Shown here: piece after piece, positions 24,119-34,307 of the stretch
How positions within the stretch are numbered: the first letter of the stretch is position 1
Layout: each line of letters starts with the position of its first letter
Origin: Caldimonas mangrovi
GTDB lineage: Bacteria; Pseudomonadota; Gammaproteobacteria; Burkholderiales; Burkholderiaceae_C
Direction of reading: 5' to 3'
Length of the DNA: 64,000 nt
Assembly: GCF_023721835.1 (NCBI RefSeq)
Contig: NZ_JAMKFE010000018.1
Span: 1-64,000 of the forward strand
Position numbers and translations under genes: made by a program
Notes under the pieces: generated by a model
Told to the model about the DNA's origin: nothing
Databases searched by the model: none
Seen by the model: the letters and a program-made list of their open reading frames with translations, nothing else

Positions 24119-25603
24119 CTAGGCGCGCACCACTTCCAACGCCGCTGGCTGGCGAATCTCCGGGTCGACCTCGGCCAGCTTCGCGACGATCTGCCCCAGC
24201 TTGCGGATCGACTCCTCGATGCGTGCCGACCACGGCTCGCCGTACTGGATGCGGATGAAATGGTCGAAGCGCCGCGTCACGCTGAAGGCCGCCCCGGGCG
24301 CCACGCCGATGTGTTCAAGCCGCGCCAGCGCGAACACCTCGCGCGAATCGACGTGCCGCGGCAATTCGATCCACAGCATCAACCCGCCCTGCGGCAGGCT
24401 GAGCCGGCAGCCGGGCGGGAAATACCTTGCCACCGCGTCGACCATCTGGTGCGCCTGGGTCTTCAGCGCGGCGCGCAGCCGGCGCAAATGGTGGTCGTAG
24501 CCGCCGTCGCGGATGAACTGTGCGATGACTTCCTGCTGCAGCATCGGGCAGGCCACCGAGGTGCGGAACTTCAACGCCTGCGTCTTGAGGAAGTGACGCC
24601 CGGGGGCCACCCAGCCGACACGATAGCCTGGCGCCACGGTCTTGGTGAACGCCGAGCACAGGATCACGTCGCCGGTGGCGTCGAAGCTCTTGAGCACCGG
24701 CGGGCGCTGGTCGCCGAAATAGATGTCGCCGTAGATGTCGCTTTCGATCAGCGTGATCTTGCGCTCGCCCATCATCTGCACCAGCCGGCGCTTGTTCTCG
24801 ACCGGCATCAGGCTGCCCATCGGGTTGGGGAAGTTGGGCAGCAGCACGCAGGCCTTGACGGCGCCGGGCACCTGCGTCGCGAAGTCGAGCGCCTCGAGCG
24901 AGAGGCCGTCACGCGGGTGGCTGGGAATCTCGATCACCTTCATGCCGAGGCTCTCGATGGTCTGCAGCACATGGAAGTAGGTGGGCGACTCCAGCACGAT
25001 GGTGTCGCCGGCCTGCGCGACCGAGCGCAGCGCGAGGTAGATGGCTTCCATGCCGCCGTTGGTGACGACGATCTCGTCCGGGCGCAGGTGCACGCCCGAG
25101 CTGACGGCGCGGCGCGCGATCTCCTGCCGCAGCGCCATGCTGCCGGACATGTGATAGCGCGACGCATATTCGGGATGGCGGCGGTTCACGCTGGCCAGCA
25201 GATGCTGCAGCTTGGCCTCCGGCAGCAGCGACGGCGCCGGCGCGGCATGGAAGGACGGCGCCGCGAGCGGGTCGTCGACGATCAGCAGGAACTCGTGCAG
25301 CACCTGGTCGACGCTGACGAAGGACGCGCCTTCCATGCGCAGGTCGAACTGCGGCTCCGGCAGCGCTGGCCCGCGGGGCGCGACGAAATAGCCCGACTTG
25401 GGCCGCGCCTGGACGATGCCGCGGTTTTCCAGGCTGCGGTAGGCCTGCATCGCGGTCGTCATGCTGACGCCGTGCTGCTGGCTGAGCTGGCGCACCGACG
25501 GCAGCCGGTCGCCCGGGCGCAACGCACCGCTCTCGATGGCCAGTTCGACCTGGCAGGCGACTCGGTGGTACAGCGTGGAGGCTTCGTCGGCGGGCGCGTC
25601 CAT
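24119..25603 (-). CDS. MocR-type regulator: GntR winged helix fused to PLP aminotransferase fold
   Basis: A 494-residue MocR/PdxR-type protein. Residues ~5-75 are a GntR winged helix (GALRPGDRLPSVRQLSQQHGVS). The rest is a class I aminotransferase-like domain (TNGGMEAIYLALRSV, LLPNFPNPMGSLM, ESDIYGDIYFG, and the PLP lysine in SAFTKTVAPGYRVGWV). MocR proteins use PLP or an amino-acid aldimine as effector and are not known to be active enzymes in vivo. An alternative start at 25612 adds three residues. It is divergent from a DUF2917 gene across 175 bases that hold four CAGATG repeats, so it probably controls that gene and itself. Confidence 0.93.
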   Translation of the reverse strand: MDAPADEASTLYHRVACQVELAIESGALRPGDRLPSVRQLSQQHGVSMTTAMQAYRSLENRGIVQARPKSGYFVAPRGPALPEPQFDLRMEGASFVSVDQVLHEFLLIVDDPLAAPSFHAAPAPSLLPEAKLQHLLASVNRRHPEYASRYHMSGSMALRQEIARRAVSSGVHLRPDEIVVTNGGMEAIYLALRSVAQAGDTIVLESPTYFHVLQTIESLGMKVIEIPSHPRDGLSLEALDFATQVPGAVKACVLLPNFPNPMGSLMPVENKRRLVQMMGERKITLIESDIYGDIYFGDQRPPVLKSFDATGDVILCSAFTKTVAPGYRVGWVAPGRHFLKTQALKFRTSVACPMLQQEVIAQFIRDGGYDHHLRRLRAALKTQAHQMVDAVARYFPPGCRLSLPQGGLMLWIELPRHVDSREVFALARLEHIGVAPGAAFSVTRRFDHFIRIQYGEPWSARIEESIRKLGQIVAKLAEVDPEIRQPAALEVVRA

Positions 25604-25644
25604 GGCGGCCATTGTGCGGCCATGAGCGGCGCAGGGGATAGGTA

Positions 25645-25691
25645 CAGATGTCCGCATCTGCCGGCAATACAGATGCACGCCCGGCCATCTG
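25645..25691. promoter_or_regulatory. CAGATG repeat array between MocR and DUF2917 genes
   Basis: CAGATG occurs four times in 47 bases: plus orientation at 25645-25650 and 25670-25675, inverted (CATCTG) at 25655-25660 and 25686-25691. The outer pair extends to ACAGATG/CATCTGT. MocR regulators usually bind direct or mixed repeats near their divergent target, so this is the best operator candidate in the window. Confidence 0.7.
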
Positions 25692-25778
25692 TGCTGCAGC
25701 ACTTTGGCGCGTGCTGCGTCTGGCGGGCGCAGCCGGCGGTGGGAATACTGACTTCCCAGTTCCTGCCGGAGAAACGCC

Positions 25779-26129
25779 ATGCTCAAATTCAAACCTCCCG
25801 TCGTGCTGCAACTGCAGAAGGGGCAGCTGATCCGCTGCGACCAGGCCGCCCGTGCAACGCTGATCCGGGTCGTCTGCGGCAGGGTGTGGGTGACACAGGC
25901 CGGCGACCGGCAAGACCATTTCCTGTCGCCCGGCGCCTCGCTGCGGGTGCCCGCGCGCACGCTGGCGCTGCTGGGCGCCGAAACCGATGCCCAGGTGGCA
26001 TTCTCCGCGCCGGCAAGCCGCGTCGCGGCCCTGCTGGGCCGCCTGACGACGCCGATGACTCGCCTGTGGCACCGCGTCGGCCGGCGGCCGGCGACAGCCG
26101 GTGGTGCGACACATCCGGCCACCGGCTGA
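25779..26129 (+). CDS. DUF2917 domain protein
   Basis: A 116-residue protein. Residues ~10-90 match the DUF2917 domain, a small beta-rich fold (LQLQKGQLIRCDQAARATLIRV, CGRVWVTQAGDRQDHFLSPGASLRV). The tail is Arg/Pro/Ala-rich. Function is unknown; the fold is cupin-like by appearance of GxxxxV...PG...V pattern, which is inference. It is transcribed divergently from the MocR regulator. Confidence 0.88.
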   Translation: MLKFKPPVVLQLQKGQLIRCDQAARATLIRVVCGRVWVTQAGDRQDHFLSPGASLRVPARTLALLGAETDAQVAFSAPASRVAALLGRLTTPMTRLWHRVGRRPATAGGATHPATG

Positions 26130-26249: not shown

Positions 26250-27311
26250 ATGAATCTGCTGCTGTTCCTGCTTGGCCTCGCAGCCCTGGTGGCCGGGGCC
26301 GAACTGCTGGTGCGCGGCGCGGCCCGGCTGGCGCTGTCGTTCGGCGTCTCGCCGCTGGTGGTCGGGCTGACCATCGTCGCCTTCGGCACCAGTGCACCGG
26401 AGGTGGCGGTGTCGATCGGCGCGGTGGCCAGCGGCACCACCGACCTGGCGGTCGGCAACGTGGTTGGCAGCAACATCTTCAATGTGCTGCTGATCCTCGG
26501 GCTCGCGGCCTTGATCTCGCCGCTGTGCGTGCACGTGCAGATCATCCGGCAGGAGGTGCCGATGATGACCGCCGCCACCCTGGTGCTGGCGGTGCTGGTG
26601 CTCGACGGCCAGCTGTCGCGCGCAGAAGCGGGGTTGCTGCTGGCGGTGCTGATCGCCTACTCGGTGTTCCTCGTGCGGCAGTCTCGCGCGGCGCCGCCCG
26701 AGGAGCAGGCGGAGTACGAGAAGAGCGCGTCTCACAGCCGCTGGGACCGCCACTGGGCGGTGCAATGGCTGCTCGTGGCCGGCGGGCTGGTCTTGCTGGT
26801 GCTCGGCTCCGACTGGCTGGTCGAAGCGGCGGTCGCGTTCGCACAGGCACTGGGCGTCAGCGACGTCGTGATCGGCCTGACCGTCGTCGCGGCCGGCACC
26901 TCGATGCCGGAAGTCGCCACCTCGGTGATGGCCACGCTGCGCGGCGAGCGCGACATCGCGGTCGGCAACGTGATCGGCAGCAACCTGTTCAACATCCTCG
27001 GCTGCCTGGGCGTGTCGGGCCTGGTGGCCTCGGGCGGGCTGGCAGTGCCCCCCGCCGTGCTGCACTTCGATCTGTGGGTGATGACCGCGGCCATGCTCGC
27101 CTGCCTGCCGGTGTTCATGACGGGGCGCGAGATCGCACGCTGGGAAGGGGCCGTCTTCCTCGGCTACTACCTGGCCTACACCGCCTACCTGATTCTGGCA
27201 GCTCAGCAGCACGCCGCGCTCGGGGCCTATTCGCAGGTGATGATGAGCTTCGTGATCCCGCTGACGATCGTGACGCTTGTCGCGGTGATGATCCGGCCGC
27301 GCCCGGGCTGA
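26250..27311 (+). CDS. Calcium/sodium antiporter
   Basis: A 353-residue inner-membrane cation exchanger of the CaCA superfamily (YrbG type) with 10-11 hydrophobic segments in two inverted alpha-repeats. The ion-binding motifs are present in both: VAFGTSAPEVAVS with GNVVGSNIFNVLL, and VAAGTSMPEVATS with GNVIGSNLFNILG. Length fits the K+-independent bacterial members. A central cytoplasmic loop (about 145-170) is charged. The thioesterase gene follows 58 bases later. Confidence 0.94.
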   Translation: MNLLLFLLGLAALVAGAELLVRGAARLALSFGVSPLVVGLTIVAFGTSAPEVAVSIGAVASGTTDLAVGNVVGSNIFNVLLILGLAALISPLCVHVQIIRQEVPMMTAATLVLAVLVLDGQLSRAEAGLLLAVLIAYSVFLVRQSRAAPPEEQAEYEKSASHSRWDRHWAVQWLLVAGGLVLLVLGSDWLVEAAVAFAQALGVSDVVIGLTVVAAGTSMPEVATSVMATLRGERDIAVGNVIGSNLFNILGCLGVSGLVASGGLAVPPAVLHFDLWVMTAAMLACLPVFMTGREIARWEGAVFLGYYLAYTAYLILAAQQHAALGAYSQVMMSFVIPLTIVTLVAVMIRPRPG

Positions 27312-32825: not shown

Positions 32826-34307
32826 ATGACCGACCTCACCCTGCTGTTGCGCCACGCGTTGAAGCCCGGCAAGGCTGCCCGCAGCCCGATGCAGCGGCGG
32901 CTTTCCGAAGCGCTGCGCAACGCCGTGCTCGAAGGCAGGCTGCCGGCGGGCAGCCGGCTGCCCGGTTCGCGCGGGTTGGCACAGGACCTCGGCATCGCTC
33001 GCAACACGGTGCTCCACGCCTACGAGCAGTTGAGCGTCGAGGGCTACGTGCGCGCGGACCGCCAAGGCACGGTCGTGTGCCGCCTGCCTTCCGGCCATGC
33101 CGCCGGGCGCAGCGCCTCCCGCCTGCCACCCGGGCCCGACACGCTCGGGCCCGCCACGCTCTCGCATCGGGGGGCGGCCATCGTGCCGCCCGCCGCCTGG
33201 GACCTCGACCAGCGCGCGCTCGCGCCGGGCGTTCCGGCGCTGGACCGCTTTCCTCTCGCCGCCTGGCAGCGACGCGTGTCCCAAGTGTCGAAGTCGCTTC
33301 GCCACACCGCACTGGGCTACCGCGATCCGTTGGGCGAGCCGGTCTTGCGAGCGGCCATCGCCACCTACGTGGCCGCTGCCCGCGGCGTTCGATGCGGGCC
33401 GGCGCAGGTGGTGGTCACGAGCGGCACACAGGAGAGCCTGGCTCTGTGTGCGCATCTGTTTGCCGACGCAGGCGACACCGCCTGGATCGAGCACCCCGGC
33501 TACGCCGGGGCTCGATCAGCACTGGAACGCGGCGGCCTGTCGCTGGCGGGTGTGCCGGTCGACAGCGACGGCATGGCCTGCGACGCAACGCTGTGGCAAC
33601 GCCGCCCGCCGCGCATCGTCTACACGACGCCGTCGCACCAGTACCCGCTCGGCGTGGTGCTGTCGCTGTCGCGCCGGCTCGCGCTGATCGAGCACGCCCG
33701 GCGGGCCGGCGCATGGATCATCGAAGACGACTACGACGGCGAGTTCCGCTTGCGCGGCGATCCGCTGCCGGCCATGCAGGGCCTGGTGCCCGATGCTCCG
33801 GTGATCTACCTGGGCACCTTCAGCAAGACGCTCTACCCGAGTCTGCGGCTGGGTTTCATGGTGCTGCCTGCCTCCATTGCGCAGGCCGCTCGCCATGCGC
33901 TGGGCGCCCTGCTGTGCCAGGGCCAGGTGGCCGAGCAAGAGGTGCTCGCGGCCTTCCTGCAGGAAGGCGATTTCACGATGCACGTGCGGCGGATGCGACG
34001 GCTCTACGCGGAACGGCAGCAGGCGCTGCGCGACGCGATCGGGCGGCATTGGCCGCTGCCGCATGCGCTGTCCGGCGGAGACTGCGGGCTGCACCTCGCG
34101 CTGTCCCTGCCCGGCGAGGCCGACGATCGCACGGTCGAGCGGCACGCCCACGCAGCCGGGCTGGGCGTGCGCGCGCTGTCCGGGTATTCGATGCCCGCCG
34201 CCCCGTCGCGCAACGGTCTCGTGATTGGCTACGGCAACACCTCGCCGCGCCAGATCGGCCTCGCGATCGTGAAGCTGGCGGCCTGCGTGAAAGCGGTTCC
34301 TCGGTGA
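32826..34307 (+). CDS. MocR-type regulator (PdxR-like)
   Basis: A 493-residue GntR/aminotransferase fusion. The winged helix covers ~10-90 (NAVLEGRLPAGSRLPGSRGLAQDLGIARNTV). The aminotransferase-fold domain contains VVVTSGTQESLALCAHLF, TPSHQYPLGVVLS, IIEDDYDGEFR and the PLP lysine in YLGTFSKTLYPSLRLGFM. Members bind PLP and regulate vitamin B6 or amine metabolism genes. It diverges from the FMN-binding protein gene, its probable target. Confidence 0.93.
   Translation: MTDLTLLLRHALKPGKAARSPMQRRLSEALRNAVLEGRLPAGSRLPGSRGLAQDLGIARNTVLHAYEQLSVEGYVRADRQGTVVCRLPSGHAAGRSASRLPPGPDTLGPATLSHRGAAIVPPAAWDLDQRALAPGVPALDRFPLAAWQRRVSQVSKSLRHTALGYRDPLGEPVLRAAIATYVAAARGVRCGPAQVVVTSGTQESLALCAHLFADAGDTAWIEHPGYAGARSALERGGLSLAGVPVDSDGMACDATLWQRRPPRIVYTTPSHQYPLGVVLSLSRRLALIEHARRAGAWIIEDDYDGEFRLRGDPLPAMQGLVPDAPVIYLGTFSKTLYPSLRLGFMVLPASIAQAARHALGALLCQGQVAEQEVLAAFLQEGDFTMHVRRMRRLYAERQQALRDAIGRHWPLPHALSGGDCGLHLALSLPGEADDRTVERHAHAAGLGVRALSGYSMPAAPSRNGLVIGYGNTSPRQIGLAIVKLAACVKAVPR

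Follow-up and report, generated by a model that had tools for sequence, protein, structure and literature searches.

Introduction

Regulators of the MocR subfamily are described, in passages of PMC5320631, as forming divergons in which the regulator represses its own gene, the divergently transcribed target is activated and the operator is made of several boxes. The GabR and PdxR divergons treated in the same passages resemble the locus analyzed here in that the regulator is divergent from a putative target and several direct and inverted boxes stand at conserved distances; auto-repression is known there and is predicted from sequence here. The locus lies in the window, by which we mean the whole analyzed stretch of 64,000 nucleotides of Caldimonas mangrovi DNA. 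A gene for a MocR-subfamily regulator (start at 25603, minus strand) and a gene for a DUF2917 protein (start at 25779, plus strand) point away from each other across a gap of 175 bp (25604-25778). The array of short repeats in this gap is probably the operator of a MocR divergon that has DUF2917 as its output.

DUF2917 has next to no literature among the texts searched, in which a single paper names it; a passage of PMC6520446 applies the name to GSU3506. The family accession PF11142 is not named in the texts searched. The prefix of GSU3506 presumably stands for Geobacter sulfurreducens.

The locus and its box array

The features of the locus are listed below by window position and strand. F and R denote boxes of the ACAGA and TCTGT type, respectively, as read from the MocR side.

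24119..25603, minus strand: MocR-subfamily regulator, 494 amino acids (Pfam PF00392, 64.1 bits; PF00155, 99.1 bits)
25611..25616, minus strand: -10-like hexamer CACAAT of the putative MocR promoter, 7 nt before the ATG
25644..25648, plus strand: candidate operator box 4 (R, TCTGT from the MocR side), abutting the MocR -35 region; TCTGTAC is invariant in six aligned gaps
25657..25661, minus strand: candidate operator box 3 (F, GCAGA here), a lineage-specific extra; ACAGA in orthologs G006, G002, G003 and G021, no box in G007
25669..25673, plus strand: candidate operator box 2 (R), 19 bp from box 1 and 25 bp from box 4; CTGT is invariant in six aligned gaps
25688..25692, minus strand: candidate operator box 1 (F, ACAGA); ACAG is invariant in six aligned gaps
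25719..25723, minus strand: weaker box on the upstream side (F, CCAGA), separated from box 1 by 31 bp and at the -35 position of the putative DUF2917 promoter
25744..25749, plus strand: -10-like hexamer AATACT of the putative DUF2917 promoter, at a distance of 20 nt to the weak box
25779..26129, plus strand: DUF2917 protein, 116 amino acids (PF11142, 57 bits against a cut-off of 25.5)

The regulator has the domain fusion by which the MocR/GabR subfamily is recognized, a GntR winged helix (PF00392, residues 11-74) joined to a class I aminotransferase-like domain (aminotransferase class I/II, PF00155, residues 148-454), and both matches exceed their cut-offs. Its lysine K321 lies within a SAFTK motif, which we take to be the PLP-binding lysine motif. 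Among its best 25 NCBIfam matches, the protein falls below the cut-off of every named MocR type (PdxR, YczR, EhuR, MocR, GabR and PtsJ), scoring 262.3 bits against 320 for PdxR (NF052282) and 124.5 bits against 600 for GabR (NF052285). The immediate neighbors of its gene encode DUF2917 and a 98-aa protein with no Pfam match; neither is a PLP or GABA gene. Six further matches in the same genome span both MocR domains, the nearest of which (43% identity) does not adjoin DUF2917. This paralog (L002, C1:240693-242111) carries no box template and is divergent from a protein that by eye resembles threonine dehydratase. A second and distant MocR gene (27% identity) is located in the window at 32886-34280.

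Four CAGATG/CATCTG units were first reported within 47 bases of the divergent gap, and this count is confirmed: they span 25645-25691, with units at 25645-25650 and 25670-25675 on the plus strand and at 25655-25660 and 25686-25691 on the minus strand. Across the entire window, CAGATG shows no enrichment (32 observed, 33.7 expected). When the entire window was simulated 300 times with a first-order Markov model, no run gave four copies within 50 bp, the largest cluster being three. Judged from the aligned boxes, the conserved unit is ACAGA/TCTGT and CAGATG is its spelling at this locus, because the TG that follows ACAGA varies among the ortholog boxes. The operator-like array of the preliminary description is therefore retained, with ACAGA/TCTGT taking the place of CAGATG as its unit. 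A fifth and weaker box, TCTGG at 25719-25723, stands 31 bp beyond the array on the DUF2917 side; its AG...CAG columns are invariant in the six aligned gaps, and G007 and several other families have a full ACAGA or ACAGT there. Operator-type repeated boxes in the divergent gap, a trait of the MocR/GabR subfamily, are thus present at the sequence level. When the strict pattern of 19 and 25 bp is searched in the same genome, the only exact match is in this gap. With two mismatches allowed, there are three matches (one of which overlaps the array itself) against one in the control, so no wider regulon is claimed.

Conservation of the array

Near relatives were searched in a set of 60 genomes, comprising the source genome and 59 relatives, with MocR accepted at E <= 1e-120. 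Eight of the 60 carry such a protein, the source genome included, and five of the other seven proteins are 75-83% identical to it; no match at this threshold was found in four of the eight relatives from the same genus. The preliminary description expected the repeats to persist in orthologous gaps, and in all five orthologs (G006, G002, G003, G021 and G007) the array is kept and DUF2917 is divergent. The boxes of G006, G002 and G003 read ACAGA, TCTGT, ACAGA and TCTGT from the MocR side at 0, 19, 31 and 44, and the window boxes occupy the same places, with GCAGA as the third. G021 differs in its first box, which is ACAGT, and in its first interval, which is 20. In G007 the third box is missing and a complete ACAGA stands 31 bp upstream.

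The genes beyond the pair show some variation. A calcium/sodium antiporter gene (26250-27311) sits between DUF2917 and a 4HBT thioesterase in the window, a thioesterase match directly follows DUF2917 in four of the five orthologs (G006, G002, G003 and G007), and G007 has an antiporter on the far side of MocR.

Box spacing was then compared over 33 gaps whose MocR is approximately 38% identical or more, namely 27 gaps from a sample of the order, the window and the five orthologs. Three spacings that were first noticed by eye in a few gaps and subsequently counted over all of them recur: R-R at 25 bp in 24 gaps (shuffled mean 0.04), F-F at 31 bp in 15 (0.02) and F-R at 19 bp in 12 (0.0). A table of all spacings in the 33 gaps is independent of this choice by eye. 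Once the window and its five orthologs are set aside, the same-direction boxes are found at R-R 25 in 18 of 27 gaps and at F-F 31 in 11. To this extent the alignment of Burkholderiales gaps that had been proposed at the outset bears out the array, with the 25-bp spacing extending to other families. The whole template F31F19R25R exceeds all 200 shuffles in 15 of the 33 gaps (10 of the 27 from the order sample) and fails to do so in 18, including that of ortholog G021. It is not shared by six gaps of a distant MocR group (24-27% identity).

Upstream of 30 related MocR genes with no adjacent DUF2917, which were hand-picked from search lists in a comparison that includes kinship effects, R-R 25 occurs in seven cases and F-F 31 in two. 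The array therefore need not mean regulation of DUF2917. By these counts, it is a property of this MocR group that is more frequent where DUF2917 adjoins. In a MocR tree of 78 rows, from which L194 (a match with no DNA-binding domain) was left out, the divergent-DUF2917 label needs 9 changes versus 26.3 in shuffles.

Regulator partners of DUF2917

The order sample consists of 250 genomes, of which 77 contain DUF2917 (76 above the cut-off) and 71 contain MocR at E <= 1e-80. There are 114 DUF2917 matches, from which the window's own copy and L156 were removed, the latter being a false match to a LysR protein that scores 23 bits and lies below the DUF2917 cut-off. The remaining 112 loci are not independent, some genomes being near copies, and their start codons and neighboring genes come from a crude gene caller. 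MocR lies beside 39 of the 112 genes, in divergent orientation in 33 (counting L142, where an intervening open reading frame is possible), convergent in 6 and tandem in none; the match at L150 spans residues 11-112 only. Six of the 33 divergent regulators are distant MocR types of 24-27% identity. A direct search with five LysR proteins places a GcvA-type LysR divergent from 61 DUF2917 genes and convergent with one. A third regulator family, a Cro/C1-type HTH protein of 325-334 aa, is divergent from DUF2917 in two loci (L082 and L087). DUF2917 is thus divergent from LysR or MocR in 94 of the 112 loci and from any regulator, with the HTH cases, in 96. The other loci are convergent with MocR or LysR (7) or have neither nearby (9). 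The six convergent MocR loci (L120, L141, L146, L147, L152 and L155) belong to one family, f5, and have no common promoter gap because the two genes converge. At L109 and L115, the gene divergent from DUF2917 encodes a DUF2214 membrane protein and not a regulator.

The name of the LysR partners was assigned by sequence. Among 73 loci with no MocR, 66 have a divergent neighbor according to the gene caller, and 52 of these neighbors match each of two LysR domains. The first of the 52 passes the GcvA model (361 bits against a cut-off of 288), and the same model matches all 52 with the best E-value; GcvA-type is the closest name only, since other LysR models match all 52 as well.

The source genome (5.5 Mb) contains at least 83 LysR HTH matches above the cut-off, with 150 of 211 candidates scored, and seven full-length MocR proteins. 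With the gene total estimated at about 5,000, a divergent LysR or MocR neighbor could be expected for roughly 2 genes in 100. Of the two DUF2917 genes in this genome, one is divergent from MocR and the other from LysR.

The preliminary description proposed that the MocR-DUF2917 pair could be a PLP- or amino-acid-responsive system. A system confined to MocR is rejected in view of the 61 of 112 DUF2917 genes that are divergent from LysR, MocR being beside 39. A tree of DUF2917 proteins, built without L150 (internal stop), has too few columns to be resolved; the partner label needs 17 changes on it, of which well-supported branches force two. Of 299 genomes sampled across the phylum, eight have DUF2917 above the cut-off, all of the same order, and a plasmid search with the window protein gave no match. 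By its pairings, DUF2917 looks like a recurrent companion of regulators that swaps its partner and not like a MocR-specific part, and the regulators beside it probably have it as their dedicated output or partner.

Promoter geometry

A scan for sigma-70 consensus promoters returned nothing, so the proposed -10 elements rest on conservation. On the MocR side, CACAAT precedes the start by 5-9 nt in G006, G002, G003 and G021, and GACAAT does so by 8 nt in G007. The MocR message is probably leaderless, because the hexamer of the window is only 7 nt before the ATG and those of the orthologs are similarly close. On the DUF2917 side, the distance from the weak box to the -10-like hexamer is 20 nt in the window, G006, G002 and G003 and is unclear in G021. 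FF31-type gaps of other families have a TAnnnT hexamer 20 nt from the first box. In the profile of MocR gaps from which this geometry is read, 3 of 15 rows (G006, G002 and G003) are anchored one box further in.

The gaps between LysR and DUF2917 (L047-L138) contain a different box. CAAACGA is present in 30 of 60 gaps, where 3.4 occurrences of AAACGA would be expected from base shuffles, and AAACGA is nearly unidirectional (30 to 2). A -10-like hexamer again lies 20 nt from the box, in a profile that is anchored on AAACGA, so that the columns outside AAACGA alone count as evidence. CAAACGA is a candidate operator of the GcvA-type LysR regulators. A weaker GCATGAG is seen approximately 16 nt after CAAACGA and may be a second half-site or a part of the LysR start region.

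In both classes, the 20 nt between box and hexamer would bring a bound regulator to the -35 position of the DUF2917 promoter. This is the usual position for an activator that touches RNA polymerase.

Proposed divergon

The array, its conserved spacing, the divergent pairing and the constant distance from box to hexamer are observed directly. From them, we infer a switch in which MocR would bind the four to five ACAGA/TCTGT boxes of the common gap. The box nearest MocR abuts the -35 region of the probably leaderless promoter, and its occupation would result in auto-repression of MocR. From the farthest box, which coincides with the -35 position of the putative DUF2917 promoter, MocR would activate DUF2917. 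Activation would take place with PLP as the putative ligand, and perhaps also with an amino compound, and DUF2917 would be the dedicated output of the switch. The regulator itself appears to have been swapped during evolution, such that elsewhere a GcvA-type LysR would drive DUF2917 from the same promoter place.

The DUF2917 protein offers few indications of its role. An alignment of 27 members, hand-picked from the sampled loci, shows three invariant residues, G34, W37 and D46. Searches of Pfam at E <= 1 with these 27 members return Cupin_6 in three (best 6e-5), Cupin_3 in two and Cupin_2, Ppnp and EutQ in one each, all weak. They fit a reading of DUF2917 as a metabolic mini-cupin, with a binding or enzymatic role, whose substrate is sensed by the regulator; the regulator would then simply switch a catabolic or detoxifying step at its own locus. 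This reading is compatible with the divergon and is a possibility that we take seriously but lean against. No cupin model matches the window protein at E <= 1, and most of the cupin matches are of about the same low strength as single-member matches to unrelated families such as DUF2345 and TOBE. No conserved histidine set is found in the 27 members, whose invariant columns are G, W and D only, and no solved relative is confident. The downstream genes also vary, with no conserved operon across the order sample and a commonest family of 5 among the 55 same-strand neighbors scanned.

Several candidates among solved structures were rejected. Designed Pizza propellers and one virginiamycin B lyase gave short repeated matches of about 9 bits each. 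The hypothetical protein PH1566 matched at E 0.9, and weak matches were obtained to a cupin (E 1.5) and to a protein of the DUF1255 family (E 0.58).

Our preferred guess is that DUF2917 is a small regulatory or ligand-binding companion, which in our opinion likely acts on or with its own regulator or reports the same signal. A more specific version is put forward tentatively and is, on present estimates, rather unlikely. Here the DUF2917 proteins would be interchangeable companions with a cupin-like mini-domain that binds the signal or the regulator, would be under the control of that regulator and would have been re-used by three unrelated families (GcvA-type LysR, MocR in at least two distant groups and Cro/C1-type HTH).

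The array might instead serve MocR autoregulation only, with DUF2917 expressed independently and its divergent place kept for other reasons. The R-R 25 spacing upstream of 7 of the 30 MocR genes that lack DUF2917 fits such an arrangement, as do the six loci in which MocR and DUF2917 converge. It is nevertheless improbable, since it leaves aside the divergent orientation of 94 of the 112 loci, which involves two unrelated regulator families and no tandem MocR case, and the constant 20 nt between a box and the -10-like hexamer of DUF2917 in the MocR class as well as in the LysR class. That the repeats form a transcription attenuator or another RNA hairpin instead of protein sites is hardly credible: the gap does contain inverted repeats of 11-12 nt, but box spacing is kept across families while the sequence between boxes changes, a terminator scan found nothing, and the array should escape transcription from either promoter because it lies upstream of both likely -10 hexamers.

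Comparison with known systems

Of the sampled DUF2917 genes, 96 of 112 are divergent from an adjacent regulator gene, and the promoter geometry is repeated under regulators of unrelated families. These findings make an orphan family into a regulatory companion that is open to testing, and they supply candidate operators for many uncharacterized MocR and LysR proteins. The wider rule that emerges would be a surprising one, in which a small orphan gene mostly stays divergent from a regulator while the family of that regulator changes. The pairing of MocR or LysR with DUF2917 is unrecognized in the literature searched, and the supplementary regulon tables of PMC5320631, which cover 86 MocR groups, may list these operators.

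Unlike the regulators of the GabR and PdxR divergons, the window MocR adjoins DUF2917 and the 98-aa protein instead of a PLP or GABA gene and scores below both the PdxR and GabR cut-offs. Its strict box order, F R F R, is missing from Table 2 of PMC5320631. The F F R R order of its relatives may equal the arrangement with two boxes each way that is given there for eight regulogs.

The divergent pairs of GcvA-type LysR and DUF2917 share with the MocR case the partner family, the divergent layout and the distance of 20 nt from box to hexamer. They differ in having an unrelated regulator and CAAACGA as the box, and they are more frequent (61 of 112). In Escherichia coli, the activity of GcvA is modulated by a separate small protein, GcvR. 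We know of no interaction between DUF2917 and partners of the GcvA-GcvR type. The likeness between the two systems is that each combines a GcvA-type regulator with a separate small protein, and the difference is that GcvR is an ACT-domain protein.
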